Assembly: GCA_002791575.1 (NCBI GenBank)
Contig: PFXI01000040.1
Location: 35,114-67,590 of the forward strand
Reading direction: 5' to 3'
DNA length: 32,477 nt
DNA from: Zetaproteobacteria bacterium CG_4_9_14_3_um_filter_54_145
GTDB taxonomy: Bacteria > Pseudomonadota > Zetaproteobacteria > Mariprofundales > Mariprofundaceae
The position numbers and the translations under genes were made by a program. The notes beneath the pieces are model-generated. The model had not been told where the DNA came from, searched no databases, and saw only the letters and a program-made list of their open reading frames with translations. Of this stretch, positions 737 through 17,694 are shown one piece after another (position 1 is the stretch's first letter; every line of letters begins with the position of its first letter).

Positions 737-2245
737 ATGCCGCTGATTAAAGGCAATGTTATTGCCAATATGGTTGGAAATGGGTGGGCGGCAATGGTGT
801 CAATTGCCTTTCTTCCTTTATATATCCACTTTATTGGTATTGAATCGTATGCCTTGGTTGGTTTTTATGTTGCCATGCAAGCAATACTGTCTCGACTTGA
901 TATGGGATTAACAGCTGTGATGTCGAGAGAGCTGGCACGCCTTTCGGCAACTGAAAATGGTGAACAAGCCATGAGGGATTTGGTTCGAACACTTGAATTG
1001 GTATGCTGTTTGCTGGCCGCAGTCATCGTGATAATAATGGCGAGCATTGCTCCCTGGGTATCGCAACACTGGTTTAATGGCAGTACCCTTTCTGCTGCAG
1101 TTATTCATCAATCAGTTGTGCTCATGGGCATAGTCATAGCGCTAAGGCTGCTTTATGGTTTTTATTGCAGTGGTTTGCTCGGATTGCAGCGGCAAGTGCT
1201 GCTCAATAAGGCCAAGGTGCTTTTGGAGACCATAGTTGCACTTGGTAGTGTGCTGGTGCTGTGGAGGATATCTCCGACTATTGAGGCATTTTTCATGTGG
1301 CAAGCGATTGCAGGGGGCTTTGCTGCATTGACCATGGCATGGCTATTGTGGAAGGCATTGCCAAAATCCGGGAAGCCTATGCTCCGTTTGGATATTCTAA
1401 GAACGGTTGCCCGTTTTGCCGGCGGCGTAAGCCTGGCAACCTTAACTGCTTCGGTTTTCATTCAGGTGGATAAACTGATGCTGAGTGCAATGCTGCCAAT
1501 TGAGGTGTTTGGTTTCTACGCTTTGGCATCGGCAGTTTCTATGGGAAGTATGTTTCTTGTCAGTGCTTCTATATTTTCAGCCATGTACCCGGCATTCACC
1601 CAGCTTATTGCAAGTCAGAATGAAGTCTCTTTGACTCAATTGTATCATAAGGGAAGTCAGGCAATGACGGTGCTTTTGGTTCCAGCTGCATTGGTAATAT
1701 CATTCTTTTCCAAAGATATTCTGGAAGTGTGGACTCAGAATAGCGCGCTTGCCACTCAGGTTGCGCCAATTCTCAGTGTGATAGTGGTTGCAGCAGCGTT
1801 CAGTGGAATAAGGTATTTGGCCTATGCGCTTCAACTGTCCCATGGTTGGACCAGGTTGACAGTGTTTTCTAATTTGATTGCAATAGTGTTTCTTTTTGCA
1901 GCACTTCAAATAGTTGTGCCCTTAAGTGGGGTGCAGGGGGCGGCACTGGCATTTTTGATCGTGAATGCACTTTATACATTTTTTTATGTATATATCATGC
2001 ACCGTAAAGTTCTGAAGATGGAGTTTTATAAATGGCTTTCTGCTGATTTTATTCTTCCGTCAGTTGCCGCTTTTTCAATTGTCCTGTGCTTCTGGTTGTT
2101 AAAACCGATGGATATGAACGATCTTAGCAAGTTAATGTGGATATTATTAGCGGAGGGACTTTCCACGTTGGCAGCGGTAATGTTTGCTCCGGTAGTCAGG
2201 CGGGAGATGACCTCGCTGTATAATGCTATTTTTGCCAACCGCTAG
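737..2245 (+). CDS. Wzx-like polysaccharide flippase (MOP superfamily)
   Basis: A 502-residue integral membrane protein with about 12-14 hydrophobic segments along its whole length, the size and layout of Wzx/RfbX-type flippases. These move undecaprenyl-pyrophosphate-linked oligosaccharides across the inner membrane. The N-terminal helix pair (residues 5-60) and the repeated polar/hydrophobic pattern fit the MATE-like MOP fold. The ATG start follows the sulfotransferase by 24 bp, and a GT2 gene starts 32 bp downstream. Sequence alone does not reveal the substrate. The fusion protein at 7601-10501 carries a second flippase-like domain of the same superfamily, so the locus has two candidate exporters. 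Confidence 0.85.
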   Translation: MPLIKGNVIANMVGNGWAAMVSIAFLPLYIHFIGIESYALVGFYVAMQAILSRLDMGLTAVMSRELARLSATENGEQAMRDLVRTLELVCCLLAAVIVIIMASIAPWVSQHWFNGSTLSAAVIHQSVVLMGIVIALRLLYGFYCSGLLGLQRQVLLNKAKVLLETIVALGSVLVLWRISPTIEAFFMWQAIAGGFAALTMAWLLWKALPKSGKPMLRLDILRTVARFAGGVSLATLTASVFIQVDKLMLSAMLPIEVFGFYALASAVSMGSMFLVSASIFSAMYPAFTQLIASQNEVSLTQLYHKGSQAMTVLLVPAALVISFFSKDILEVWTQNSALATQVAPILSVIVVAAAFSGIRYLAYALQLSHGWTRLTVFSNLIAIVFLFAALQIVVPLSGVQGAALAFLIVNALYTFFYVYIMHRKVLKMEFYKWLSADFILPSVAAFSIVLCFWLLKPMDMNDLSKLMWILLAEGLSTLAAVMFAPVVRREMTSLYNAIFANR

Positions 2246-3805: not shown

Positions 3806-4543
3806 GTGAAGCCTGATTATAAAAGCGTATATTATGACTATCAGACCAAGGCTCGAGGGTTGCTGGCAAAAGAGAGTCTGACAGCGCGTTTTGAGCAGCT
3901 TGCTAGGTGGTATGATGGCAGGTTAAGCCCGCACCTTCCGAAGGACAAACAGGCGCGTTGTCTGGATGTGCCGTGCGGTTTTGGGAATTTTCTCTACTTC
4001 CTGAATGGAAAGGGGTATCAAAACATTCAGGGTATTGATCTGGATTCGAAGCAGGTTGAGCTGGCAAAACTGGTTGGTTTACCAGCCGAGCAGGGTGATG
4101 CCTTTCAAATCCTGTCCGGTGAAGGAGCTTCGTTCGATCTGGTTACTTCGCTTGATTTCATAGAACATCTGGATAAAGACAAAGTGCTCGAATTTCTGTC
4201 ACTCATATACAATGGTCTGAAGCCAGGTGGGACTATAATCCTCAGGGCACCTTGTGGTGACGGGCCGTTTGGAGCCCATGATGCCTGGAACGACCTGACC
4301 CATCAGTGGGGTATGACCTCCAATGTTGTACGGACATTGCTTGAAATGCATGGTTTTGAGAACGTGAAAATTCTCGATGAACGGCCGCAACCCGGAAGTA
4401 TTGTTGATACCGTACGCTGGTTGGTATTCTTTCCTGCGAAAATGATAGCGGATGGATTCTGCATGGCGCTAGGTATGCGCCCTCCTGCAATCTGGACGCG
4501 TTCCATGATTGCCATAGGTCACAAGCCGACCACAGCCAAGTGA
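3806..4543 (+). CDS. Class I SAM-dependent methyltransferase
   Basis: A 245-residue Rossmann-fold methyltransferase. Motif I is CLDVPCGFGNF (residues 52-62), the acidic residue binding the SAM ribose is in GIDLDS (76-81), and the LVTSLDFIEHLD segment corresponds to motif IV. A C-terminal hydrophobic, basic stretch (about 195-215) suggests membrane contact. The GTG start is supported by a strong GGAGGAG at 3797-3803. The stop overlaps the GTG start of the next gene by four bases, so the two are probably translationally coupled. In this context it would methylate a sugar or the glycan end, a role known for chain-terminating methyltransferases in O-antigen loci. That role is inferred. Confidence 0.85.
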   Translation: MKPDYKSVYYDYQTKARGLLAKESLTARFEQLARWYDGRLSPHLPKDKQARCLDVPCGFGNFLYFLNGKGYQNIQGIDLDSKQVELAKLVGLPAEQGDAFQILSGEGASFDLVTSLDFIEHLDKDKVLEFLSLIYNGLKPGGTIILRAPCGDGPFGAHDAWNDLTHQWGMTSNVVRTLLEMHGFENVKILDERPQPGSIVDTVRWLVFFPAKMIADGFCMALGMRPPAIWTRSMIAIGHKPTTAK

Positions 4544-5760
4544 AAATCCTCTGTGTCTTCGGGCAGTATAACTACGGTGATCCCGAGCGCGGCCTTGGAT
4601 ATGAATATTCTAATTTTATTCCTGCGCTGAAGAACCTCGGGCATGAGGTGCTATTTTTTGAAAGCCTGAATAAATCGAAATACGTTGATTATGCGGATAT
4701 GAATAGGCAATTGCTGCAGATAGTTGAGGCGGAAAAGCCGGATCTGATCTTCTGTGTGCTGATGACCTACGAAATCTGGCTGGAGACCCTGCAACTTATT
4801 CGCGAAGGCAGTAATGCAGCATTAATTCACTGGGCCACTGATGATTCATGGAAGTATGAACAGGCTTCACGTTTTTTGGCGCCGATGTTCGATGTCCATG
4901 CAACGACCTACCCCTCAGCTATGGCAAAGGCTAAAAAGGATGGGCTGGATAATGTTGTGCTAAGTCAGTGGGCTGCGGATTCATCCCGTATGGCACCGCC
5001 TCTTAATGCGGGACAGTGTCGTTACAAGGTCAGCTTTGTTGGTTCAACGTATGGTAATCGTCAGCAGTGGGTCGAGGATTTAAAGCAGCGCGGTATCCAG
5101 GTGGATGCATTCGGATACGGCTGGCCGAATGGACCGGTGGCAGCAGAAGAGATAGCCGTGATTATGCGGGAGTCTCAAGTCAGCCTTAATTTTGGTGATT
5201 CAGGTGTGGTGATTGAGGGTGGTAAAGCGGTGCGCAGCCGGCAGATCAAGGCGCGTATATTTGAAGTGACAGGAGCCGGCGGGCTGCTGGCGACCGAGAG
5301 TGCTGCCCATCTGGATGCTTTTTTTGTCCCGGGTGAGGAGATCGTCGTATTCAGTGATATCGATGATCTGGTAGAAAAAATTGAATACTTGCTTGCCCAT
5401 CCGGACAGGCGTGATGCCATAGCGCAGGCAGGGTATGCAAGAACCGAGGCCGAACACAGTTACGAGTCCCGTTTTGAACCGCTGATTAAACAGGCAATGG
5501 CACGCAGGGAAATGCGCCCGGCTGCAAAACAAGGTATTGATTTTGATCGCTTTGGCATGATCGAAGCATCACATCGCCCGCATCTGCTGTTGCACCTGCT
5601 CAAGCTGATGCTATTGCTCCCTTGTTTGTTGGTATGGGGGAAGCAGCGCGGGCCACGTGCTGCCAGGCGTTTTCTGTTCGAGTTTAGCTGGCGATACTTG
5701 GGGAAGAAAACCTATTCTGCTACGAATTGGGCGGGGCGAGTTTTTTACAAAGAGAGTTAA
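4540..5760 (+). CDS. CgeB-like glycosyltransferase (GT-B fold)
   Basis: A 406-residue protein similar in layout to the CgeB/'glycosyltransferase family protein' group. The N-terminal Rossmann domain starts ILCVFGQYNYGDP and includes ALIHWATDDSW (residues about 91-101), a characteristic segment of this family. The C-terminal nucleotide-binding half carries FEVTGAGGLLATE, then a FFVPGEEIVVFSD segment and a helix of the type that ends many GT4-like proteins. A basic, hydrophobic tail of about 50 residues follows. It starts with GTG inside the stop of the methyltransferase gene. Members in surface-polysaccharide loci are presumed sugar transferases; donor and linkage are unknown. Confidence 0.78.
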   Translation: MKILCVFGQYNYGDPERGLGYEYSNFIPALKNLGHEVLFFESLNKSKYVDYADMNRQLLQIVEAEKPDLIFCVLMTYEIWLETLQLIREGSNAALIHWATDDSWKYEQASRFLAPMFDVHATTYPSAMAKAKKDGLDNVVLSQWAADSSRMAPPLNAGQCRYKVSFVGSTYGNRQQWVEDLKQRGIQVDAFGYGWPNGPVAAEEIAVIMRESQVSLNFGDSGVVIEGGKAVRSRQIKARIFEVTGAGGLLATESAAHLDAFFVPGEEIVVFSDIDDLVEKIEYLLAHPDRRDAIAQAGYARTEAEHSYESRFEPLIKQAMARREMRPAAKQGIDFDRFGMIEASHRPHLLLHLLKLMLLLPCLLVWGKQRGPRAARRFLFEFSWRYLGKKTYSATNWAGRVFYKES

Positions 5761-5800
5761 ATGCATAGTCTGCTAGCCTTGCAACTAGACGGGAGTTGAT

Positions 5801-6712
5801 ATGAATGTTCTGGTATTGGGCGGAAGCGGGTTTATCGGTTCGCATGTGGTGGATCACCTGCTTGCAGCCGGTCACAGGGTGCGTGTGTTTGATCGCGCGC
5901 CGGAGCGTTACCGCTCGCCGTTAAAGCAAGTTGAATACAGACTTGGTAGTTTTGACGATACATTTCAGGTGGCCGAGGCACTGCAAGGTATGGATGCTGT
6001 ATGTCATCTGATCAGTACCACGGTACCCGGAACATCCAATCTCGATCCTGTCGCTGATGTGCAAAGCAACCTGATCAATACACTGTCACTACTTGAGCAG
6101 ATGAGAAAAAAAAGTTTACGCAGAATACTCTATCTCTCATCCGGCGGTGCAGTTTACGGGAATCCTGAACTCTCTCCTGTCAGCGAAAGCCATTCACTGA
6201 ATCCGATCAGTTCATACGGCGTTGTGAAGGTCGCTATCGAAAATTACTTGAAAATGTATCAGCAGCTGTATGGGTTTGAACCTATTATCTTGCGCCCATC
6301 CAATCCTTATGGCTCCAGGCAGGGACATGCCGGCGTGCAGGGCTTGATCGGAACGTTGCTTGCCAGAGCGCTGGCAGGCGATGCGTTGGAAATCTGGGGC
6401 GATGGCTCTGTTGTTCGTGATTACATGCATGTCACCGATCTTGCCCGCTTATCTGTTGCGGCACTGGAGAGTGGGCGTTGCGGCGTGTTTAATGCCGGCA
6501 GCGGTCAGGGCCACTCAATTCATGATATTATTGATCAGATCCGTAATGTCACCGATGAACAATTGCAGGTAAGCTACAGTGAAGGTCGCTCCTTTGATGT
6601 GAAAGAGGTCGTGCTCGATATCAGTCATGCCAAAGCAGTGTTCGGGTGGCAGCCCGAGATATCGCTGTCCGACGGCATTCACGAACAACTGAAATGGTTG
6701 AAGTCGTTGTGA
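5801..6712 (+). CDS. NAD-dependent sugar epimerase/dehydratase (extended SDR)
   Basis: A 303-residue extended short-chain dehydrogenase of the GalE/WbpP type, converting one NDP-sugar into another in the cytoplasm. It has the NAD-binding glycine motif GGSGFIG at residues 7-13, the catalytic serine region YLSSGGAVYG (111-120), the YxxxK pair Y139/K143, and RPSNPYG followed by a substrate-binding region. The start has GGGAG about 6 bases upstream. It is probably a UDP-hexose(NAc) 4-epimerase, but 4-reductase or dehydratase activity cannot be excluded from motifs alone. It lies 40 bp after the CgeB-like gene and 40 bp before another GT2 gene. Confidence 0.83.
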   Translation: MNVLVLGGSGFIGSHVVDHLLAAGHRVRVFDRAPERYRSPLKQVEYRLGSFDDTFQVAEALQGMDAVCHLISTTVPGTSNLDPVADVQSNLINTLSLLEQMRKKSLRRILYLSSGGAVYGNPELSPVSESHSLNPISSYGVVKVAIENYLKMYQQLYGFEPIILRPSNPYGSRQGHAGVQGLIGTLLARALAGDALEIWGDGSVVRDYMHVTDLARLSVAALESGRCGVFNAGSGQGHSIHDIIDQIRNVTDEQLQVSYSEGRSFDVKEVVLDISHAKAVFGWQPEISLSDGIHEQLKWLKSL

Positions 6713-6752: not shown

Positions 6753-7595
6753 ATGCAGCCACGCGTAACGATAGCGCTGCCGGTCTATAACGGCGGGGCT
6801 ACGCTGAAACTCGCAGTCCACTCCGTTTTGCAGCAGAGCTTCACCGACTGGGAGTTGATCATCCTCGATGATGCATCCACAGATAACAGTCTGGAGGTGA
6901 TGCGTTCCTTTGATGATCCGCGCATCCGTTTGGTGGAAGGGGAGCACAATCTGGGTCTTTCTGCACGCCTGAATATGGCTGTGGATATGGCTTGCGGTGA
7001 TTACTTTGCCCGCATGGACCAGGATGATATCAGTCTTCCACTTCGATTGGGGAAACAGCTCGGTTACCTTCAGAAACATGGCGAAGTCGACCTTCTGGCA
7101 ACCAATTATGCAGCATTCAATGATAAACATGAGTGGCGGGGCAAGTTGTCTGTGCGACTGGGGCATGAAGATATTTGTCGCAGCCCGTGGAGCGGCTTCT
7201 ATATGCCACATCCTACCTGGATGGGTAAACTGACATGGTTTAAAAGACACCGTTACCACAGCTATGCTGATGGCGCTGAAGATCAGAACCTGTTGCTGCG
7301 TAGCTATGCCGAAAGCTGTTTTGCCTGTCTTGATGAAGTGTTGTTGGCTTACAGGCAGAATGAGCGTCCACTCAAACACAAGCTGAGAGCCCGGTTCAGG
7401 TATGCTCAATCTGCATTTGCTTCTTGTCGGGCGTGTGATGTCTGTCACATGGCGATTAAAGTGTTAATTGTACAGTTGGCCAAGGGCTTTGTGGACATGG
7501 TAAGCTCATGGTCCCCTTGGGAGCAAAGGGGACTGGTGCCACTTACAGATGAAGAAACTCGCTATCTTAATAGCGTTATAGAGGACTTAAAATAA
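6753..7595 (+). CDS. GT2-family glycosyltransferase
   Basis: A 280-residue GT-A fold glycosyltransferase. It starts VTIALPVYNGG (residues 5-15), continues LIILDDASTDNS (35-46), and has the DxD-type motif MDQDD with D89, D91 and D92. The segment GAEDQNLLLR further on matches the usual ED catalytic-base motif, and a cysteine-rich stretch (SCRACDVCHM) lies near the C-terminus. The gene ends 5 bp before the large fusion gene, so the two are probably cotranslated. It would add one sugar to the lipid-linked oligosaccharide; its specificity is unknown. Confidence 0.88.
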   Translation: MQPRVTIALPVYNGGATLKLAVHSVLQQSFTDWELIILDDASTDNSLEVMRSFDDPRIRLVEGEHNLGLSARLNMAVDMACGDYFARMDQDDISLPLRLGKQLGYLQKHGEVDLLATNYAAFNDKHEWRGKLSVRLGHEDICRSPWSGFYMPHPTWMGKLTWFKRHRYHSYADGAEDQNLLLRSYAESCFACLDEVLLAYRQNERPLKHKLRARFRYAQSAFASCRACDVCHMAIKVLIVQLAKGFVDMVSSWSPWEQRGLVPLTDEETRYLNSVIEDLK

Positions 7596-7600
7596 ACCTT

Positions 7601-10501
7601 ATGGAAACGAAGCTCGCCAGGCACTCTGTCTCGGCAGTATTGCCCTTGTGGGTGGCGTTGTTCTGCTTTGCTACCGTGATGGGGCTGCTCTTTCAGAAAT
7701 TAATTCTCCCCGCTATCCCTTCCATGCATGCAGGCCTTGGCTTGATGAACAATGATGCAATCTACTTTCATCATGTTGCGGAATTGATGGCTGCCAATAT
7801 CCAGGCGAACGGATGGAGCTGGGATGCTATCTGGCCGCATGCACAGGGGGCGACGGGAAACGTGGTTGTACTTGCCATAGTGTATGCACTGTTTGGCGCC
7901 GACCCCTCACTGATTTTGCCCGTTAATGCTGCGCTGCATGCCACTTCAGGCATTCTACTCCTGCTGATCGTGCAGCTGCTTTGCCCGGGCAGGATAGGCC
8001 AGGCTGCCGGTATTGTCGCGGCCACGCTGTTTGTGATCCTGCCTTCGGGTCTGAACTGGTACGCACAGGTGCATAAGGATGGATATGCGATCGCAGGCAC
8101 GCTGCTAGTATTGTATGCGTGGCTGCGTTTTTTCTATCACCATACAGGTGCGCGCTCTGTTGCAATCTTTATTTTGGCCAGCCTTGCAGGTGTTGCGCTA
8201 ATTCTGTTTGTGCGCCCCTACAATACCGTTTTTCTGACGCTGGCAACGACCCTGTGGCTGGTTGCCGTTGCCACACTTGCCCTGCTTCGCTCCGAGTTTC
8301 GGAACAGGAAGAGGTATTTATTTGTTTCGATTGGTGTCTGGTTGTTGTTTGCAATACTTGCAGCCACATATGGCCATAGCGCGGCGCAGGACTCTAATGC
8401 TTACAGTCATTGGAGCGGAGCATCCCAATCTGAGGCTGAGGTTTGTACAAAATGGCACTGGCAATCCAGCTCCCTGCTACCGGCTTCGCTGGAAAAATAT
8501 GCTGAAACTGCTGCCAGAACGCGCGCAGGGCTTATATGTGCGCATTTTGATGCCTCATCCAACATTGACCGGGAACGCTTGCCACGCAGTGTCAGCGAGA
8601 TTGTCGCCTATATGCCGCGCGTATTTGCCGTTTCTCTGCTTGCCCCATTTCCCGATATGTGGTTTCCAATGAGTGCCACGCGCCTGGTGGGCGCGCTGGA
8701 GATCTTGATCTGGTATCTGCTTATTCCCGGTTTTTTTCTGGCAATCAGATATTATGGCTCACAAGGGATGGCCCTCTGCCTGCTCTTTGCGCTCTGTTAT
8801 CTTGCCATTTATGGTTTTACCATAGGCAATGTGGGAACCCTGCACAGAGTTCGTTATCCATTTCTGTTGCTGTTCATGGCCATTGGGTTGCTTGGCTGGG
8901 CCGGCCTGATTGCAAAAAGTCGTTTGTATCAAGAACGAATAAAAGGCTGGTTAACCACTGATCGAGGTAACATTATTTCGATTGAAGAGGTGTTGGCAAC
9001 CGTGGCTGACAGCGATAAGGCTGAATCGAATAGCTCTCTGAGAAAGAAAGCTATTGGTGGAGGCATACTTGTTTCAGCTATTACAATGCTCTCATTTCTA
9101 GGATTCTTTTTTCGCGATGTCCTGATGGCGCATCAATTCGGCATCAGTGAGCAGATGGATGCTTTTTTTGTAGCCATGCTGATCCCGATGTTTATGGTCA
9201 ATGTGTTTGGCCAGTCTTTCGGCTCGGCAAGTGTCTCCCTGTATATGCGTGAACGTCAGCAGGGGGAGAGTCACGGGGCGGATGTGGTTCGCCGCCTCTC
9301 TTATATGATAACATTGTCGCTGCTGGCACTGAGTCTATTGCTAGCACTACTTGCGCCTGTAGTGCTACCCTTGCTGGGCTGGAACTTTTCTGCCGATACG
9401 ATTGAACTGTCACGCTATCTTTTATATGGTGCACTCCCCCTGTTGTTGTTCAGCGGCATGGTTGTGCTGGGTAATGCCATACTTAGTGCTCGCATGCACT
9501 TTTCGGTGCCGGCTTGGTCGCAGGCGGTTGTGCCGATATTCGCCATAGCAGCACTGCTGGTTGCAGGAGAGAAACTGGGCATTGCTGCAGTGCTGATCGG
9601 CATGGTACTTGGCCAGCTTGTAAACCTTGTTCTGGTGCAGATCTATCTCAAACGTGACCGCTTGAGCGTCATGCCGAAGCGGAACCGGGAGATCACCCTG
9701 CCCGAAGGTAGTAAGAAACTGTTTCTCTCGCTCGTGATGGCGGCGATATTTTTGCAGATCTCATTGCTGATAGATAATGGCATGGCTTCCAGCCTGGAGG
9801 TTGGCAGCGTCGCCTCGCTCGGTCTGGGCTATAAAGTAGTTTTTTTTGTCACCGGTGTCATTGGTACCGGCATTTCGATGGTGTTGCTACCATATTTTGT
9901 GAGTTTTATCGTAAAACGGGATGTCATTTCTGCAAACAGAGAGCTGTCGGTGCTGATGTCACTGGCAACAATGCTCGGTATGATCACCAGTGTGACTGTA
10001 TATTATGCTGCCCCCCCGATGATACGGTTGCTGTTTCTTGGCGGAGAGGTTGACGTTCAGGATATCAATACGGTGATTCGGGTCATACATATGGGCATAT
10101 TGCAGGTGCCATTTTTTGCCTGTCAGCTGATCCTGATTAAGTATGCGACCGCTTCGCATGATAACAGGTCAATTCTTGTCTCTGCGGTTGTCGGTACGGT
10201 TGTAAACATAGCCCTTAATTATATTCTGATGCAACGCATGGGCGTAAGCGGTATTGCTGCTGCAACGACCCTCTCTATGTTCTGTAGTGCAGCAGTGTTG
10301 TTATGGATGGTTCATCGTCAGGGCAATATGTCATGGCTGGATGTGTTGCTCTCCGGTCTGGTATGGATTCTGTTTTTAACCATGATGTTGTGTATCCATT
10401 TTCAGAGTTACTCCGGCGTGGTTGTCTCTGTCATTGCTATGTTACTGGCGAGCTTTATATTGAACTTTGAAAAGGCATCGATAAATAGCAAGCCTGCTTA
10501 G
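7601..10501 (+). CDS. Fusion of a GT-C-like membrane glycosyltransferase with a MurJ/MviN-like flippase
   Basis: A 966-residue polytopic membrane protein with two recognisable halves. Residues 1 to about 455 have about 9-10 hydrophobic segments. A first-loop motif, NNDAIYFHHVAELM, matches the acidic D-x3-Y-h pattern of ArnT/PMT/RgtA-type GT-C enzymes, and HKDGYAIAGTLL follows later. A polar linker (about 456-483) leads to a MurJ/MviN-type half, with FFFRD at residues 502-506 and DAFFVAMLIP from D520. The single frame is open throughout, with no internal stop. GT-C enzymes use polyprenyl-phosphate sugars on the periplasmic side, and MurJ-type proteins flip lipid-linked sugars. I infer a coupled flip-and-transfer role. 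Several residues essential in E. coli MurJ are replaced. Confidence 0.8.
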   Translation: METKLARHSVSAVLPLWVALFCFATVMGLLFQKLILPAIPSMHAGLGLMNNDAIYFHHVAELMAANIQANGWSWDAIWPHAQGATGNVVVLAIVYALFGADPSLILPVNAALHATSGILLLLIVQLLCPGRIGQAAGIVAATLFVILPSGLNWYAQVHKDGYAIAGTLLVLYAWLRFFYHHTGARSVAIFILASLAGVALILFVRPYNTVFLTLATTLWLVAVATLALLRSEFRNRKRYLFVSIGVWLLFAILAATYGHSAAQDSNAYSHWSGASQSEAEVCTKWHWQSSSLLPASLEKYAETAARTRAGLICAHFDASSNIDRERLPRSVSEIVAYMPRVFAVSLLAPFPDMWFPMSATRLVGALEILIWYLLIPGFFLAIRYYGSQGMALCLLFALCYLAIYGFTIGNVGTLHRVRYPFLLLFMAIGLLGWAGLIAKSRLYQERIKGWLTTDRGNIISIEEVLATVADSDKAESNSSLRKKAIGGGILVSAITMLSFLGFFFRDVLMAHQFGISEQMDAFFVAMLIPMFMVNVFGQSFGSASVSLYMRERQQGESHGADVVRRLSYMITLSLLALSLLLALLAPVVLPLLGWNFSADTIELSRYLLYGALPLLLFSGMVVLGNAILSARMHFSVPAWSQAVVPIFAIAALLVAGEKLGIAAVLIGMVLGQLVNLVLVQIYLKRDRLSVMPKRNREITLPEGSKKLFLSLVMAAIFLQISLLIDNGMASSLEVGSVASLGLGYKVVFFVTGVIGTGISMVLLPYFVSFIVKRDVISANRELSVLMSLATMLGMITSVTVYYAAPPMIRLLFLGGEVDVQDINTVIRVIHMGILQVPFFACQLILIKYATASHDNRSILVSAVVGTVVNIALNYILMQRMGVSGIAAATTLSMFCSAAVLLWMVHRQGNMSWLDVLLSGLVWILFLTMMLCIHFQSYSGVVVSVIAMLLASFILNFEKASINSKPA

Positions 10502-10566: not shown

Positions 10567-11700
10567 GTGATAAAACGAATCTGTATTGTGGTTGCAAGCG
10601 AAATGACCGTAAAAGCGTTCCTGAAGCAGCAGATCATTGCGTTAAGTGAACGTTATGATGTGACGCTTGTTGTGAATACCCAACAAGCAGATTTTGCCGG
10701 GCAGAATGATTTGCAGGTCAAAGTTATCCCCCTTGCCATAGAGCGGGCTATTAATCCGGTGGCTGATTTGCGGGCGCTGTTTCAATTGATTCGCTTGTTC
10801 CGCACGCACAGGTTTGATCTTGTGCATTCGGTGACGCCGAAGGCTGGGTTGCTTGCCATGTTGGCAGCAAAGGTGGTTGGGGTACCCTTCCGTATTCACA
10901 CGTTTACAGGTCAGGTTTGGGCAACAAGGCAGGGTTTTCCCCGGCTGTTATTGAAGATGATGGATCGCTTGCTAGCCGTGTCGGCGACACACTTGCTGAC
11001 GGACAGCTTTACTCAGCGACAGTTCCTGATCGATCAGGGCATCTCTGGCAGCGAGAAATTGATAGTGCTGGCCGATGGCTCTATCAGTGGAGTGGATACC
11101 GACAGGTTCATGCCGGATAGCAGTGTCCGTTCTGACATGCGCAGGCAACTGGACATCTGCGAAGGTGATGTGCTTCTGCTGTTTCTGGGACGGTTGAATC
11201 GCGATAAAGGCGTTCTTGATCTGGCCGCGGCATTTGCCACGGTTGCTGTGAATCTGCCCCGATTGCATCTGCTTCTCGTCGGCCCGGATGAAGGCGGATT
11301 GCAGATGATTGTGAAAACAACCTGTGCTGAATACCTCCAGCGCGTTCATTTTATCGATTATACCGACAAACCCGAATCCTGTTTTGCGGCAGCCGATATA
11401 TTCTGTTTGCCAAGCTACAGGGAAGGCTTTGGTAGCGTTATTATTGAGGCGGCAGCATGCGGCATACCTGCGATCGGTTCGAGAATATACGGGATATCTG
11501 ATGCGATCAGGGAAGGGGAGACAGGCCTGCTGTTCGAAGCGGGCAATACCGACCAATTGGCCGCTACTATTGAAGTGATGACCACCGATTCGGCGTTGCG
11601 CAGTCAGCTGGGAAAAACCGCATTTGAACGCGCGCGTGATGATTTTCCGACGAAACGACTGGTTCAGGCATGGCTGGATTATTATGATGGACTGCAATGA
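10567..11700 (+). CDS. GT4-family glycosyltransferase, PglA-like
   Basis: A 377-residue GT-B enzyme. The N-terminal domain has the motif HSVTPKAGLLAMLAA followed by RIHTFTGQVWATR, typical of the PglA/WbpX-like group that extends undecaprenyl-pyrophosphate-linked acetamido sugars. The C-terminal domain has FLGRLNRDKGVLDL, then PSYREGFGSVIIEAAACG, the E-x7-E nucleotide-sugar motif of GT4. The start is a GTG with only a weak ribosome-binding site. The stop overlaps the ATG of the PglC-like gene (ATGA). In Campylobacter PglA adds GalNAc to UndPP-diNAcBac. The context here supports a second-sugar role, but the exact sugar is not known. Confidence 0.85.
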   Translation: MIKRICIVVASEMTVKAFLKQQIIALSERYDVTLVVNTQQADFAGQNDLQVKVIPLAIERAINPVADLRALFQLIRLFRTHRFDLVHSVTPKAGLLAMLAAKVVGVPFRIHTFTGQVWATRQGFPRLLLKMMDRLLAVSATHLLTDSFTQRQFLIDQGISGSEKLIVLADGSISGVDTDRFMPDSSVRSDMRRQLDICEGDVLLLFLGRLNRDKGVLDLAAAFATVAVNLPRLHLLLVGPDEGGLQMIVKTTCAEYLQRVHFIDYTDKPESCFAAADIFCLPSYREGFGSVIIEAAACGIPAIGSRIYGISDAIREGETGLLFEAGNTDQLAATIEVMTTDSALRSQLGKTAFERARDDFPTKRLVQAWLDYYDGLQ

Positions 11701-12290
11701 AACGTTTGTTTGATCTTGTGGCCGCAATCAGTGGCCTTTGTCTGTTGTGGCCGATGCTGCTGCTGTTGGTACTACTGGTGAGAATCAAGCTGGGCTCTCC
11801 GGTGCTGTTCAGGCAACAGAGGCCGGGGTTGCATGGACGGCCGTTTTATATTTACAAGTTTCGCAGCATGACCGATGCAAAGGATGCTGCCGGTCAGCTA
11901 CTGCCGGATGCTGACCGGTTAACCGCATTCGGTGTTTTTTTACGCAGGTTCAGTCTGGATGAGTTACCGCAGCTGATTAATGTGATCAAGGGCGATATAA
12001 GCCTTGTTGGACCAAGAGCGCTATTAATGGAGTATCTGCCGCTCTATGACACCGATCAGGCACGGCGCCATGATGTGCGGCCGGGAATCACCGGTTGGGC
12101 CCAGGTGAATGGCCGTAATGCTATCAGCTGGGAAGAAAAATTTGCCTATGATATATGGTATGTGGAGCACCACTCTTTTCTGCTTGATCTGAAAATACTC
12201 TGGATGACGTTGTTGAAAGTGGTGCGTTCAGAGGGAGTGGCGCAGTCCGGCCATGCAACGATGGAAAAATTCCGGGGGAATTCCAGATGA
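11697..12290 (+). CDS. Initiating phosphoglycosyltransferase, PglC-like
   Basis: A 197-residue small monotopic phosphoglycosyltransferase. It transfers a sugar-1-phosphate from a UDP-sugar to undecaprenyl phosphate at the inner membrane, starting the glycan. It has one N-terminal re-entrant membrane helix (residues about 4-30), the KFRSM motif (54-58), and the catalytic Asp-Glu dyad D88-E89 in SLDELPQL, followed by GDISLVGPRAL and RPGITGWAQVNGRN. The length matches PglC rather than the long WbaP form. Overlaps of four bases with both neighbours indicate tight coupling. The adjacent acetyltransferase and aminotransferase favour UDP-di-N-acetylbacillosamine as donor. Confidence 0.9.
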   Translation: MKRLFDLVAAISGLCLLWPMLLLLVLLVRIKLGSPVLFRQQRPGLHGRPFYIYKFRSMTDAKDAAGQLLPDADRLTAFGVFLRRFSLDELPQLINVIKGDISLVGPRALLMEYLPLYDTDQARRHDVRPGITGWAQVNGRNAISWEEKFAYDIWYVEHHSFLLDLKILWMTLLKVVRSEGVAQSGHATMEKFRGNSR

Positions 12291-12922
12291 ATCAGTTGCT
12301 CATTCTTGGGGCTGGCGGACATGGCAAGGTGATGGCTGAAGCAGCAGAAGCGGCAGGTGCGTGGCAACATATCGCGCTGCTGGATGACCGACATGCCTTG
12401 CTTGACGGTACGCTGCGCTGGCCGGTGCTGGCGAGCATCGAAGAGGCTGGGCGTTTTGTCTCTGAATATTCACATGCCATTGTGGCTGTGGGTGATAGCA
12501 GACGACGAATGGCATGGCTTAATCAGCTGAGTAGTTTCGGTTTTCTGATTCCCACGCTGATCCATCCGGCTGCATGGGTTAGCCCCTCGGCATCACTGGG
12601 TGAAGGCAGTGTCGTGATGGCCAATGCTACGCTACAGGCGGATATCCGCCTGGGGCGCGGATGCATTGTGAATACAGGTGCAAGTATCGACCATGATTGC
12701 AGCATAGGTGACGGTGTGCATATCTGTCCGGGAGCAAGCCTTGGTGGTGAAGTAATGATCGGCCATGGTAGCTGGCTCGGTATCGGCTGCGCGGTGATTC
12801 AAGGTGTGCGTATCGGCGGGAAAGTGACCGTCGGGGCGGGGGCCGCAGTGATTAGTGACATTGGAGAAGGTCTGACCGTTGTCGGTGTGCCGGCAAGAGA
12901 GATCTCCCGAGGGATGAAATGA
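12287..12922 (+). CDS. PglD/NeuD-family sugar acetyltransferase
   Basis: A 211-residue enzyme expected to N-acetylate the 4-amino group of a UDP-4-amino-4,6-dideoxy sugar using acetyl-CoA. An N-terminal Rossmann-like domain (LILGAGGHGKV at residues 5-15) binds the UDP-sugar. The C-terminal left-handed beta-helix carries the catalytic histidine H136 in GASIDHDCSI and a second conserved histidine, H145. The end has the VGVPAREI motif common to the family. It overlaps the upstream PglC-like and downstream aminotransferase genes by four bases each (ATGA). NeuD-type sialic-acid acetyltransferases are close relatives, but the neighbours make PglD the better call. Confidence 0.87.
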   Translation: MNQLLILGAGGHGKVMAEAAEAAGAWQHIALLDDRHALLDGTLRWPVLASIEEAGRFVSEYSHAIVAVGDSRRRMAWLNQLSSFGFLIPTLIHPAAWVSPSASLGEGSVVMANATLQADIRLGRGCIVNTGASIDHDCSIGDGVHICPGASLGGEVMIGHGSWLGIGCAVIQGVRIGGKVTVGAGAAVISDIGEGLTVVGVPAREISRGMK

Positions 12923-14088
12923 CTATGGGGTTTCCTGTGTGGCCTGAATATGCCGAGGATGAGATTGCAGCGGTTGAAGCAGTTTTACGGTCGGGTAAAG
13001 TAAATTACTGGAGCGGTGATCAGGGCAGTTGCTTTGAGCGGGAGTTTGCAAGCTATGTTGGCACTGCATATGCCATTGCTCTGGCCAACGGCACGCTGGC
13101 GCTGGAAGCTGCGCTCTATGCGCTGGCTATCGGAGAGGGAGATGAGGTGATTGTGCCGGCTCGAACCTTTATCGCTACAGCCAGTAGCGTGGTGATGTGC
13201 GGAGCCACACCGGTGGTGGCTGATATTGATCCGCGCAGCGGTAATCTGACACTGGAAACTATTGATGCCGCCCGCACCGAAAAAACAAAGGCGATCATTG
13301 TTGTACATCTTGGCGGCTGGCCATGTGAGATGCCTGCGGTGATGGCTTATGCTGAACTGCACGGCCTGAAGGTCATCGAAGATTGCGCACAGGCGCATGG
13401 TGCTGAAATCAATGGGCGAAAAGTAGGTTCATTCGGTCATGCCTCAGCCTTTTCATTCTGTCAGGATAAAATCATCTCCACCGGTGGTGAAGGTGGCATG
13501 CTGGTGACAAACGATCCGGATATATGGCATAAAGTGTGGTCATTGAAGGATCATGGGCGTGATTATGATGCGGTGTTTCATTGCGAACATGAACCAGGCC
13601 ATCGCTGGCTATGTACCACTTTCGGAACCAACTGGCGACTGACTGAAATGCAATCAGCCATTGGCCGTATCCAGTTACAGAAATTACCCGGGTGGCTGGC
13701 CATCAGACGATCTCATGCCACGATGTTGATTGATGGCTTGGCAGGGGTTGCGGGGTTGAATGTGCATTCTCCGGATAAAGGCGTGCTGCATGCCTGGTAC
13801 CGGTTTTATGCATGTATCGATGCAGGCCTGCTACGGGAGGGCTGGAATCAGGATCGTATTATTGAAGCGATTGTTGCTGAAGGTGTGCCCTGTTTTCATG
13901 GTAGTTGTTGCGAGATTTATCGGGAGGCAGCTTTTGACGACTTGCCGGACGATCGTTACCCGCTGCCCAATGCACATCTTGCTGCCCGTGCCAGCCTGGC
14001 GCTGTTGCTGCACCCGACGTTGAAGGAAAAAGATATTGAGAGAACAATTGCAGTAGTGAGGAGTGTGTTTGAACGTGCAGTGGCCTGA
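12919..14088 (+). CDS. DegT/DnrJ/EryC1-type aminotransferase, PglE-like
   Basis: A 389-residue PLP enzyme that would convert a UDP-4-keto-6-deoxy sugar to the 4-amino sugar with glutamate as donor. The PLP-binding lysine is K184 in FCQDKIISTGGEGG, ANGTLALEAAL (56-66) contacts the cofactor, and EDCAQAHGA (154-162) has the aspartate that pairs with the pyridine nitrogen. The start ATG overlaps the acetyltransferase stop. The dehydratase it would need is encoded at 15832-17694 in the same direction. Related enzymes can make perosamine or other 4-amino sugars, so bacillosamine remains an inference from the gene set. Confidence 0.9.
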   Translation: MTMGFPVWPEYAEDEIAAVEAVLRSGKVNYWSGDQGSCFEREFASYVGTAYAIALANGTLALEAALYALAIGEGDEVIVPARTFIATASSVVMCGATPVVADIDPRSGNLTLETIDAARTEKTKAIIVVHLGGWPCEMPAVMAYAELHGLKVIEDCAQAHGAEINGRKVGSFGHASAFSFCQDKIISTGGEGGMLVTNDPDIWHKVWSLKDHGRDYDAVFHCEHEPGHRWLCTTFGTNWRLTEMQSAIGRIQLQKLPGWLAIRRSHATMLIDGLAGVAGLNVHSPDKGVLHAWYRFYACIDAGLLREGWNQDRIIEAIVAEGVPCFHGSCCEIYREAAFDDLPDDRYPLPNAHLAARASLALLLHPTLKEKDIERTIAVVRSVFERAVA

Positions 14089-15343
14089 TGTTTTTCCAGC
14101 ATGGCAGGGGACTAAATCCTTAGCACTGATTCTGTTGTGTATGGCCATGCTCTGCTTTCCATTTTCAGTTGCAGCAACCAATGTCGCCCTCGGCTTGATG
14201 CTGGCGACAGGAGTGCTAACCGGGCTCTGGTGGCAAGGTGTGGCTGCATTATGGCATGGTTACAGGGTATTGAGCCTGGCGATAGCAGCTTATCTTGGCC
14301 TGGTTATCATTGGACTGTTGTGGAGTCTCGACCCGGCCTGGGGTATGAAGATTCTTGGCCGGCACTGGTTCTGGATGATTCTTCCGGTCATCGTGATGTT
14401 ACTATCGGATGTAAAGAACAGGTCAATATTATTATTTTTCGTCTCGCTGGGCCTGTCCCTTAATCTGATCTACTGCGTACTGCAGATATTTGATGTTGTA
14501 TCAATCACATTGGTAGGTGGATCATCCTCAAGCAATCCTACCGGACATATCGGCCATACCAGCTTCGGATTTATCTATGGGATTTGGGCCGCATGGCTGC
14601 TGCATACGGGGTTGCTCTGCCGTAATAAACTGAGCTGGTTGCTATGGGGGCTGGCTTCATGGGCAGTAGTGATGGTGTTTCTGGCTCAGGGGAAAAGCGG
14701 ATATATTGTTACGCTGGTGGTCGTATTGTTTGTCGCGATCAGGTGGTTACATGAAACTGGAGGCAGGAGGATGTTTGTAATATTGGCATCTGTGCTGCTT
14801 CTACTGTTCATGGCATTGGCGCTGGGGCCAGGAAAGGAACGTGTAGTGGGCACTTGGCAGGCACTTACAGGTACCGTACAGAAGCAGTTGAATACGGATG
14901 AGATTGTAGCTGTTTCTTCCGCCACGGCGCGTATGGAGTGGTGGAAAATGAGCTACCATATCTGGCTTGAACAGCCGCTTATGGGCGTGGGAACCGGTGG
15001 CTTCCCGAAAGCGGTGGTTGATTGGCAGGCCACCCATATCGACGAAGGTGAATTTGCAGTGGCACTGGTACATCCGCATAATCAATACCTGTTGGTGATG
15101 GTGCGTTGGGGGGTGATTGGCTTAGTCTTATTGCTGGCGCTGCTCTACTTCTGGATTCGTGCGGGGGCAGCCCGTTCGTGGCAGCATTCAGTAGCGATGC
15201 CTCTGGTTACCCTGACAGGGGTCGCCCTACTCGTGCATGGCTTGTCATCATCGAGTCTGGAAGAGCATTTCTCAACAATTTTTGCACTTGTACTGGCAGG
15301 GACAGGGCTCTCCGAAAACATCTTCTCTGATGACGCTGCCTAG
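14063..15343 (+). CDS. O-antigen ligase / O-oligosaccharyltransferase (Wzy_C family)
   Basis: A membrane protein of about 420 residues with some 10-11 hydrophobic segments and a large periplasmic loop. The loop includes ARMEWWKMSYHIW, GVGTGGF and the diagnostic PHNQYL motif of the Wzy_C family. Such proteins transfer an undecaprenyl-linked glycan to lipid A-core (WaaL) or to protein (PglL). I cannot separate these two roles from sequence alone. It overlaps the aminotransferase gene. The exact start is uncertain: GTG 14063, TTG 14069 and GTG 14075 are all in frame, and GAGGAG at 14058-14063 favours one of the latter two. Confidence 0.82.
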   Translation: MCLNVQWPDVFPAWQGTKSLALILLCMAMLCFPFSVAATNVALGLMLATGVLTGLWWQGVAALWHGYRVLSLAIAAYLGLVIIGLLWSLDPAWGMKILGRHWFWMILPVIVMLLSDVKNRSILLFFVSLGLSLNLIYCVLQIFDVVSITLVGGSSSSNPTGHIGHTSFGFIYGIWAAWLLHTGLLCRNKLSWLLWGLASWAVVMVFLAQGKSGYIVTLVVVLFVAIRWLHETGGRRMFVILASVLLLLFMALALGPGKERVVGTWQALTGTVQKQLNTDEIVAVSSATARMEWWKMSYHIWLEQPLMGVGTGGFPKAVVDWQATHIDEGEFAVALVHPHNQYLLVMVRWGVIGLVLLLALLYFWIRAGAARSWQHSVAMPLVTLTGVALLVHGLSSSSLEEHFSTIFALVLAGTGLSENIFSDDAA

Positions 15344-15831: not shown

Positions 15832-17694
15832 ATGAGTAAGCTTCTTTCCCTGAGAAATCGCTGGCTGGTGATTGCACACGATCTGCTGTGGATACCACTG
15901 GCCATCTGGGCATCCTTCTGGTTGCGTTTCAACCTGAGTGAGGTGCCGCCAATCTACCTGCAGCCGCTGCACCTGCTGATTACGATTTCTATACCATTGC
16001 AACTACTCGTTTTCTGGTATTTCGGCCTCTATCGGGGCATCTGGCGCTTTGCTTCTATTCCCGATCTGCTGCGCATCCTTCAGGCTGTGCTTGCCGGTGT
16101 GCTGCTCAGTTTTATTCTCATGTTTGTGCTGCAGCGACTGGAAGGGATCCCACGTTCCGTGCTGGTACTCTATCCGGTGATTCTGGTGATGGGGCTGGCT
16201 ACGCCCCGGCTGTTTTATCGCTGGCTGAAGGATCGACATTTGAACCTGAAAGTTTCTGAGCGCAAGCGCGCACTGCTGATCGGTGCCGGTCAGGCCGGCG
16301 AACTGCTGGTGCGCGATCTGCTGAAGTCCGGACCATATGTGGTGGCCGGTTTCTTGGATGATGCCGAGCGCAGGCAGGGGCAGGAGATTCATGGCGTACG
16401 TGTGATCGGTAAGCTTTCCGACCTGGAAAAGGTGGTCAGTCGCCATGGTGTAGAGGTGGTGCTGCTGGCCATTCCATCGGCATCGCATCAGACCATTCAG
16501 TCTGTTGTGCGGCGTTGCCAGCAGATGCATGTGCAGTGCCGGATTTTGCCATCGGTTGCCGAACTGGCCGATGGCCGGGTGGAGGTGTCGCGCCTGAGAT
16601 CCGTGCAGATTGAAGACCTGCTTGGACGTGATACGATCGAGCTGGATTATGCAGGTATTCATCAGCTGATTGCAGGGCAGACGGTGCTGGTTACCGGAGC
16701 CGGCGGATCAATCGGTTCCGAGTTGTGCCGGCAGATTTTACATCAGAAGCCTGCGGCGCTGCTGCTGCTCGATCATGGCGAATTCAATCTCTACACGATT
16801 GATCTTGAGCTGAAACCGGCAGGGGAACAGTCGGGCGTCGCGGTCTCCGCCATTCTTGGCGATATTCGCGATGAAGTGCGCATGCGCTGGCTTATCGAGC
16901 ATTTCCGGCCAGCCATTATATTTAATGCCGCGGCCTATAAACATGTACCTCTGGTCGAAGAGAATCCGGCCGAAGGTATCAAAACCAACGTGCTGGGTAC
17001 CTGTCAGCTGGCTGATCTGGCGGTCGAGTTCGGCGTAAAGAAATTTGTACAGGTCTCCACCGATAAGGCGGTGAATCCGACCAATGTTATGGGGGCCTCC
17101 AAGCGTACGGCGGAAATTTATTGCCAGAACCTGAATCGCAGAGCAGAGACAACCGCCTTTATCACGACCCGTTTTGGTAATGTGCTGGGCTCTGCAGGTT
17201 CTGTGGTGCCTCTGTTTCGCAAGCAGATAGAGGCTGGTGGGCCGGTCACTGTGACGCATCCGGATATTACCCGTTATTTCATGACCATACCGGAAGCGGT
17301 CAGCCTGATTCTGCAGGCGGGCAGTATGGGCCATGGCGGCGAGATATTCGTACTTGATATGGGCAAGCCGGTGAAGATTGTGGAGCTGGCAGAACAGATG
17401 ATCCGCCTGACAGGGCTAGAGCCGGGTCACGATATCGAAATCCGGTTTACGGGTTTGCGGCCGGGTGAAAAGTTGTATGAGGAGTTGTTCCATGACTCTG
17501 AAAAGCTTGCGGCTACAGGACATGCGAAGATCATGCTATCCGGCAGTCGTGAGGTGGATTGGCAGCTTATGCAGCAGGGCTTGCAGAGCCTGCGTGAAGC
17601 CTGTGCAACGCGTGATATCAACCTGCTGCATCGTAACCTTAAACAGCTGGTGCCGGAATTTTCATCCGGGTTGCTCAAGGATGGAGCGAGCTGA
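15832..17694 (+). CDS. Membrane UDP-sugar 4,6-dehydratase, PglF/WbpM/FlaA1-type
   Basis: A 620-residue enzyme of the long membrane-bound family converting UDP-GlcNAc to its 4-keto-6-deoxy derivative, the first step to bacillosamine. It has four N-terminal membrane helices (residues about 10-125), then a Rossmann-like segment (LLIGAGQAGE, about 149-158). The SDR domain has TGAGGSIGSE (about 286-295) and STDKAVNPTNVMGASKR (about 408-424). In that last motif Met replaces the usual catalytic Tyr, as is normal for WbpM/PglF enzymes. The start at 15832 is right behind the comEA-like terminator with only a weak ribosome-binding site, so its promoter is unclear. It supplies the substrate for the aminotransferase at 12919. 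Confidence 0.92.
   Translation: MSKLLSLRNRWLVIAHDLLWIPLAIWASFWLRFNLSEVPPIYLQPLHLLITISIPLQLLVFWYFGLYRGIWRFASIPDLLRILQAVLAGVLLSFILMFVLQRLEGIPRSVLVLYPVILVMGLATPRLFYRWLKDRHLNLKVSERKRALLIGAGQAGELLVRDLLKSGPYVVAGFLDDAERRQGQEIHGVRVIGKLSDLEKVVSRHGVEVVLLAIPSASHQTIQSVVRRCQQMHVQCRILPSVAELADGRVEVSRLRSVQIEDLLGRDTIELDYAGIHQLIAGQTVLVTGAGGSIGSELCRQILHQKPAALLLLDHGEFNLYTIDLELKPAGEQSGVAVSAILGDIRDEVRMRWLIEHFRPAIIFNAAAYKHVPLVEENPAEGIKTNVLGTCQLADLAVEFGVKKFVQVSTDKAVNPTNVMGASKRTAEIYCQNLNRRAETTAFITTRFGNVLGSAGSVVPLFRKQIEAGGPVTVTHPDITRYFMTIPEAVSLILQAGSMGHGGEIFVLDMGKPVKIVELAEQMIRLTGLEPGHDIEIRFTGLRPGEKLYEELFHDSEKLAATGHAKIMLSGSREVDWQLMQQGLQSLREACATRDINLLHRNLKQLVPEFSSGLLKDGAS

Follow-up and report, generated by a model that had tools for sequence, protein, structure and literature searches.

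The DNA analyzed here, a window of 32,477 nucleotides (G000:C111:35114-67590) from a draft zetaproteobacterial genome of 2.85 Mb in 124 contigs, carries a gene whose single product joins a membrane GT-C enzyme to a MurJ-like flippase. The gene (7601..10501, + strand) is a 966-amino-acid frame with an ATG start and no internal stops. We count the fusion as real because the joined gene recurs, in the same frame, in seven other genomes. Our preferred reading, to which we give a probability of roughly three in four, is that the product is one bifunctional inner-membrane protein, a flippase and a GT-C enzyme acting in O-antigen-type polysaccharide assembly, for which we infer transport, catalysis and the hand-over of substrate from one half to the other.

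The frame divides into three parts, all on the + strand. The N-terminal GT-C domain (residues 1-450; 7601..8950) was assigned from an AlphaFold2 model, its Foldseek matches in the PDB and PMT_2 matches in intermediate sequences. The C-terminal MurJ-like flippase domain (residues 489-949; 9065..10447) was assigned by PF03023 and TIGR01695, and its matches among PDB sequences are the solved MurJ structures. Between them lies a linker (residues 451-488; 8951..9064) that is predicted to be cytoplasmic and is poorly conserved, as its omega values indicate, while always remaining in frame and free of stops. A sequence-only reading of this DNA had described 966 open codons joining two membrane modules, and this is borne out by the open frame and the assignment of both halves. 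Neither a frameshift nor separate genes were found at the linker, which is crossed in one frame in eight genomes, G000 included, and three proteobacterial groups have homologues that carry the two halves in a single chain. A full-chain AlphaFold2 model built from six sequences reached a pLDDT of only 50.7, too low to be of use, and was set aside.

Full-length fusions were recovered from seven genomes (G000, G048, G071, G072, G400, G402 and G608), where they are 963-974 amino acids long and stop-free. The eighth, in G063, is truncated by a contig end, although its frame still spans the linker. The carriers comprise five Mariprofundaceae, G000 among them, the gammaproteobacterial MAG G400, G608 from the same order as G400, and G402, a MAG titled Deltaproteobacteria. 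Identity to the G000 fusion is 80% for G048, 78% for G071, 77% for G072, 63% for G400 and 40% for G402; the G608 fusion is 57% identical in the N-terminal half and 71% in the C-terminal half. The arrangement is rare, occurring in 5 of the 74 genomes of the family search, in 2 of 210 genomes of the order of G400 (G400 and G608) and in G402 alone among 395 genomes of its phylum sample. Against the three nearest relatives, omega was 0.10-0.13 for the N-terminal half and 0.08-0.11 for the C-terminal half; for the stop-free linker, omega against the zetaproteobacterial relatives was 0.20-0.40. All these values are rough because synonymous sites are near saturation. The ratios indicate purifying selection on both halves, strong on the C-terminal one. 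Additionally, none of the four full-length zetaproteobacterial linkers contains an in-frame ATG ahead of the first flippase helix.

Unfused relatives of the GT-C half, at approximately 25-30% identity, occur in G413, G694, G639, G1204 and G1337. Profiles were needed to find them, as a broader single-sequence search over the phylum returned none. The relative in G639 (L048:8754-10069, contig C1) is split over two frames encoding 104 and 377 amino acids, which is a frameshift or a sequencing error. In G1173 (L066, contig C24), separate genes at 4557-5867 and 9107-10378 encode, respectively, a distant relative of the GT-C half and a flippase of the MurJ family. No other flippase was seen in that glycan locus, which presents an unfused counterpart of the GT-C/flippase pairing.

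Direct sequence comparison of the N-terminal half returned little. The sole direct Pfam match of residues 1-452 was DUF6541, at 19.9 bits and under its cut-off of 29; no curated GT-C family matched above its cut-off, and PF04932 (Wzy_C) did not match at all. A profile of this half gave no significant match to PDB sequences, and hhalign of the profile against E. coli ArnT alone did not detect homology. No plasmid relatives of the half were found, and a fold search among viral proteins gave no match at E ≤ 0.001. We then modeled the half with AlphaFold2 on a 30-sequence alignment of standalone and diverged relatives gathered by profile searches, which yielded a mean pLDDT of 90.9 and a pTM of 0.91. 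The first 23 PDB matches of this model in Foldseek are GT-C enzymes only: STT3 of the human and yeast OST, archaeal AglB, ArnT, DPY19, ALG9, ALG12, Pmt4, the Emb and Aft arabinosyltransferases and PimE. The best E value was 7.9e-4, and the best 14 matches had a probability of 1.00. In contrast, WaaL (7tpg), which stands for the Wzy/WaaL fold, reached a probability of only 0.21. TM-scores of the PDB matches were modest, about 0.5 by query length, so that the assignment is one of fold class and not of close kinship. Independently of the model, two relatives that profile searches connect with the half score above the PMT_2 cut-off of 26.1 bits (L050 with 29.5 and L062 with 38.8). Thus, by predicted fold and through intermediates, the N-terminal half is a GT-C protein without a direct family match, and the earlier call of such a domain is supported on those grounds.

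That call had rested on an acidic first-loop motif, NNDAIYFHH. The motif contains D52 (7754..7756, +), an acidic residue of the first periplasmic loop that at least 90% of the 30 sequences share and that the model places at the start of the helix following TM1. By analogy with GT-C enzymes, D52 is probably the catalytic residue. P148, P351 and G412 also reach 90% conservation or more in this set, while R416 (8846..8848, +) is the sole invariant residue in that alignment of GT-C relatives. A second motif, H158-K159-D160 (8072..8080, +), lies in a later predicted periplasmic loop and is invariant in the six fusions aligned. In a 12-sequence set, K159 and D160 are at least 90% conserved, and Q156, R308 and N410 are invariant. 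From the helix limits of the model and the distribution of positive charges, we infer a topology of ten spans with both ends cytoplasmic and the conserved polar residues periplasmic. Such cytoplasmic ends fit the cytoplasmic N-terminus of MurJ.

The C-terminal half matches the MurJ family PF03023 over residues 509-949 with 181.9 bits (E 2.2e-53; cut-off 27.4). Its match to TIGR01695, over residues 489-949, scored 185.1 bits and fell short of the equivalog cut-off of 235.55. In E. coli MurJ, the cavity residues R18, R24, R52 and R270, together with D39, are essential (PMC4790310). All five are kept in 17 of 17 canonical MurJs that we aligned. In the fusions, the positions of R18, R24, R52, R270 and D39 read F, R, V, K and D in 7 of 7 proteins compared; the equivalent of R24 is R505 (9113..9115, +). 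A separate canonical MurJ is encoded elsewhere in G000, G399 (=G072), G400 and G402. A maximum-likelihood tree, in which deeper placement is limited by long branches, unites the fusion flippases in a single clade (99/99) apart from canonical MurJ. The cavity residues, the tree and the separate canonical MurJ led us to reject a duplicate lipid II flippase, and on this comparison of sequences the flippase half of the fusion is predicted not to flip lipid II. The earlier MurJ/MviN call for this half therefore stands as a family match, whereas "MurJ-like" does not here mean a lipid II flippase, given the absence of R18 and R52 and the grouping of this half with a flippase of an exopolysaccharide-type locus.

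The sister of the fusion clade (99/99) is a MurJ-like flippase from an exopolysaccharide-type locus of G050, a genome of the same genus. This nearest relative of the fused flippase (L110:8958-10346, contig C7) matches PF03023 with 226.7 bits and has no arginine at R52; the 19 kb read of that locus showed no other flippase.

The fusion gene lies in a glycan locus. From the 5' side, the window encodes a sulfotransferase, Wzx, a GT2, an acetyltransferase, a methyltransferase, a glycosyltransferase, an epimerase and a second GT2 ahead of the fusion, and, after it, a GT4, an initiating sugar-phosphate transferase, a PglD-like protein, an aminotransferase, a Wzy_C protein and a CapD/PglF-like protein. 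A Wzx had already been noted in the locus, and PF01943 confirms a separate MOP-type flippase there (737..2245, +; 44.8 bits). Three conserved neighbors precede the fusion on the same strand: a Glyco_trans_1_2 glycosyltransferase (4540..5760, +), homologues of which stand beside the fusion in G048, G072, G400 and G608, an NAD-dependent epimerase (5801..6712, +), and a GT2 glycosyltransferase (6753..7595, +; PF00535) that ends 5 bases ahead of the fusion. The GT4 glycosyltransferase (10567..11700, +) is directly downstream in every fusion locus read. It is followed by the PglC-like initiating sugar-phosphate transferase (11697..12290, +; PF02397), the PglD-like acetyltransferase (12287..12922, +; PF17836, with TIGR03570 above its cut-off), a DegT-type sugar aminotransferase (12919..14088, +; PF01041), the Wzy_C protein, a polymerase or ligase (14063..15343, +; PF04932, 65.8 bits), and the CapD/PglF-like 4,6-dehydratase (15832..17694, +; PF02719). 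The Wzy_C and aminotransferase genes overlap by 26 bases.

Some genes bear on the product itself. The sulfotransferase-domain gene ahead of Wzx (23-712; PF00685) has a counterpart in the G402 locus, which contains a sulfotransferase of PF17784, and the glycan may be sulfated. The locus starts just upstream of the window (L017:10397-17001; G000:C111 about 28396-35000) with a nucleotidyltransferase, a 4,6-dehydratase, an RmlC-type epimerase and a C-methyltransferase (PF08484), genes whose predicted functions suggest that the product contains a deoxysugar that is branched or C-methylated.

Gene order around the fusion is kept in its relatives. The series of glycosyltransferase, epimerase, GT2, fusion, GT4 and initiating transferase is found in G048, G072 and G400, and even G402 retains the gene order that runs from the fusion through the CapD-like gene. 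A GT4 is also downstream of the unfused GT-C in G694, G639 and G1204. Past the G400 locus come genes for a lipid A acyltransferase and an ABC exporter. In G402, LPS core genes, among them those for an HldE-like kinase, a Kdo transferase and an ABC exporter, lie about 17 kb upstream of the fusion. These lipid A and LPS core neighbors support an O-antigen-type product. Wzy_C genes also occur in the G048 and G063 loci and are absent from the same spot in G072, G400, G402 and G608; the gene thus comes and goes within an otherwise kept order. A separate Wzx is kept in every fusion locus readable far enough. Lastly, G400 and G608 encode a protein of 505-518 amino acids with about nine spans upstream of the fusion locus (L114:12632-14185 and L115:14382-15896). 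We compared these as alternative polymerase candidates; neither matches a Pfam family, and their similarity to the GT-C half does not exceed chance.

In the preferred reading of the fusion as a bifunctional assembly protein, the C-terminal MurJ-like domain would move an undecaprenyl-linked glycan out of the cytoplasmic leaflet and into the periplasmic one. The GT-C domain at the N-terminus would take the flipped, lipid-linked glycan as donor and form a glycosidic bond at the periplasmic face, with the single chain holding the flippase exit beside the transferase active site. That the flippase feeds the GT-C in this way is plausible. Speaking for the reading are the GT-C fold with its PMT_2 intermediates, the MurJ family match, the open frame in eight genomes, the selection on both halves, the charged cavity residues kept in the flippase half, the exopolysaccharide-type locus of its nearest relative, the lipid A and LPS core neighbors, and the place of the GT-C in loci that show no other polytopic protein besides the flippase. 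The kept Wzx counts against this reading, since a second flippase needs a second substrate or another reason. As for substrate, we lean slightly toward an Und-PP-oligosaccharide, used in a polymerase-like or en bloc manner, over an Und-P-monosaccharide donor. Two versions of the preferred reading differ on this point, and the probabilities we attach to them are shares of its overall figure, not additions to it.

The version that we hold to be the stronger candidate, while still giving it less than even odds, casts the GT-C half as a repeat-unit polymerase or OST-like ligase to which the flippase half brings an Und-PP repeat unit. Apart from the flippase, the portions read of the G402 and G400 loci and of several unfused loci encode no polytopic protein but the GT-C, which stands where a polymerase would be expected, in loci that offer no other candidate. 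Additionally, the only Wzy_C protein of the G402 genome sits among the LPS core genes, as expected of a ligase, and STT3 and AglB, which use lipid-PP-oligosaccharides, are top fold matches. However, a complete Wzx is kept, the GT-C_A fold differs from the known Wzy/WaaL fold, and Wzy_C is present in some zetaproteobacterial loci; in the loci that carry it (the window, G048 and G063), polymerization need not fall to the GT-C. The most specific form of this proposal, in which one chain is both translocase and transferase and its MOP flippase passes the lipid-linked glycan to an attached GT-C_A repeat-unit polymerase in O-antigen-type loci, we consider rather unlikely.

Somewhat less probable than the polymerase or ligase version as a whole is a three-component branching system. 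Here a GtrB/DPMS-like enzyme would supply an Und-P-monosaccharide for the flippase half to flip, and the GT-C half would add the sugar as a side branch to a backbone made by the separate Wzx and Wzy. This version accounts for the second flippase kept beside Wzx, and ArnT is among the best fold matches of the N-terminal half. Searching with an approximate GtrB query (92% identical to E. coli YfdH), we found full-length GtrB-like matches outside the locus in G000, G048 and G402. In contrast, G072 (incomplete), G400 and G608 gave only weak partial matches, and none of the six genomes searched encodes a GtrB-like Und-P-sugar synthase within the fusion locus. Nor was a small GtrA/GtcA-type flippase seen among window ORFs of at least 120 amino acids; the flippases known for Und-P-sugars belong to the small GtrA/GtcA or ArnE/F proteins and not to the MOP proteins (PMC7389260).

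Outside the preferred reading, the flippase half might have stopped transporting and instead support the GT-C half as its scaffold or as a platform that binds lipid. Loss of R18 and R52, essential for lipid II, the change of R270 to lysine and the presence of Wzx in the locus would agree with this. We regard it as improbable, as the C-terminal half is under strong purifying selection, related MurJ-like proteins (L110, L066) appear as sole flippases of glycan loci, and the kept R24 and D39, with a positive charge at R270, argue for retained transport of a charged lipid. An assembly error or frameshift that merged two genes has a negligible chance even though G000 is a draft genome, and was ruled out by the related genomes: eight assemblies in all cross the linker in an open frame.

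The hand-over of lipid-linked glycans from flippase to enzyme is hard to study because the partners are usually encoded apart. Here a MOP flippase and a GT-C are joined by nature, and the fusion, which is conserved in several proteobacterial groups, offers a fixed one-to-one pair for cryo-EM and reconstitution. It draws attention, too, to a family of small GT-C proteins that Pfam does not name and that stand where a polymerase would be expected in O-antigen-type loci. If the polymerase version is true, it would be an undescribed class of polymerase joined to its own flippase. The open-access literature that we searched yielded no account of a GT-C joined to a MOP flippase, which does not prove that none exists. 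Both parts come from known fold families; as far as we have seen in that literature, the novelty lies in their covalent pairing.

Each part has its known counterpart. The C-terminal half resembles the MurJ lipid II flippase (PF03023/TIGR01695) in its family match over the whole half and in keeping R24, D25 and D39, but it lacks R18 and R52, has a lysine at R270, scores below the TIGR01695 cut-off and sits behind a GT-C domain in a genome with a separate canonical MurJ. Mycobacterial MurJ (MviN) carries a fused pseudokinase domain and is similar in joining MurJ to another domain; there, however, a regulatory soluble domain follows a true lipid II flippase, and no GT-C is present. With the GT-C_A enzymes (ArnT, STT3/AglB, PMT, DPY19), the N-terminal half shares its predicted fold and an acidic residue right after the first membrane helix. 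It differs in its length of about 450 amino acids, in having no direct family match, in its fusion to a flippase and, compared with STT3, in lacking the large periplasmic domain.

For the pairing itself, three-component glycosylation of the Gtr/GtcA type, with a GT-A, a flippase and a GT-C, places flippase and GT-C in series (PMC7389260). The fusion would follow the same logic, a flippase and then a GT-C acting on an undecaprenyl-linked sugar, but Gtr/GtcA systems use separate proteins, a small GtrA/GtcA flippase and an Und-P-sugar synthase of a kind missing from the fusion locus. MprF is a flippase-synthase fusion (PMC8131360) and, like the protein described here, combines in one chain a flippase for lipids with an enzyme from its own pathway, although the folds differ and the MprF synthase acts before the flip, on phospholipids.
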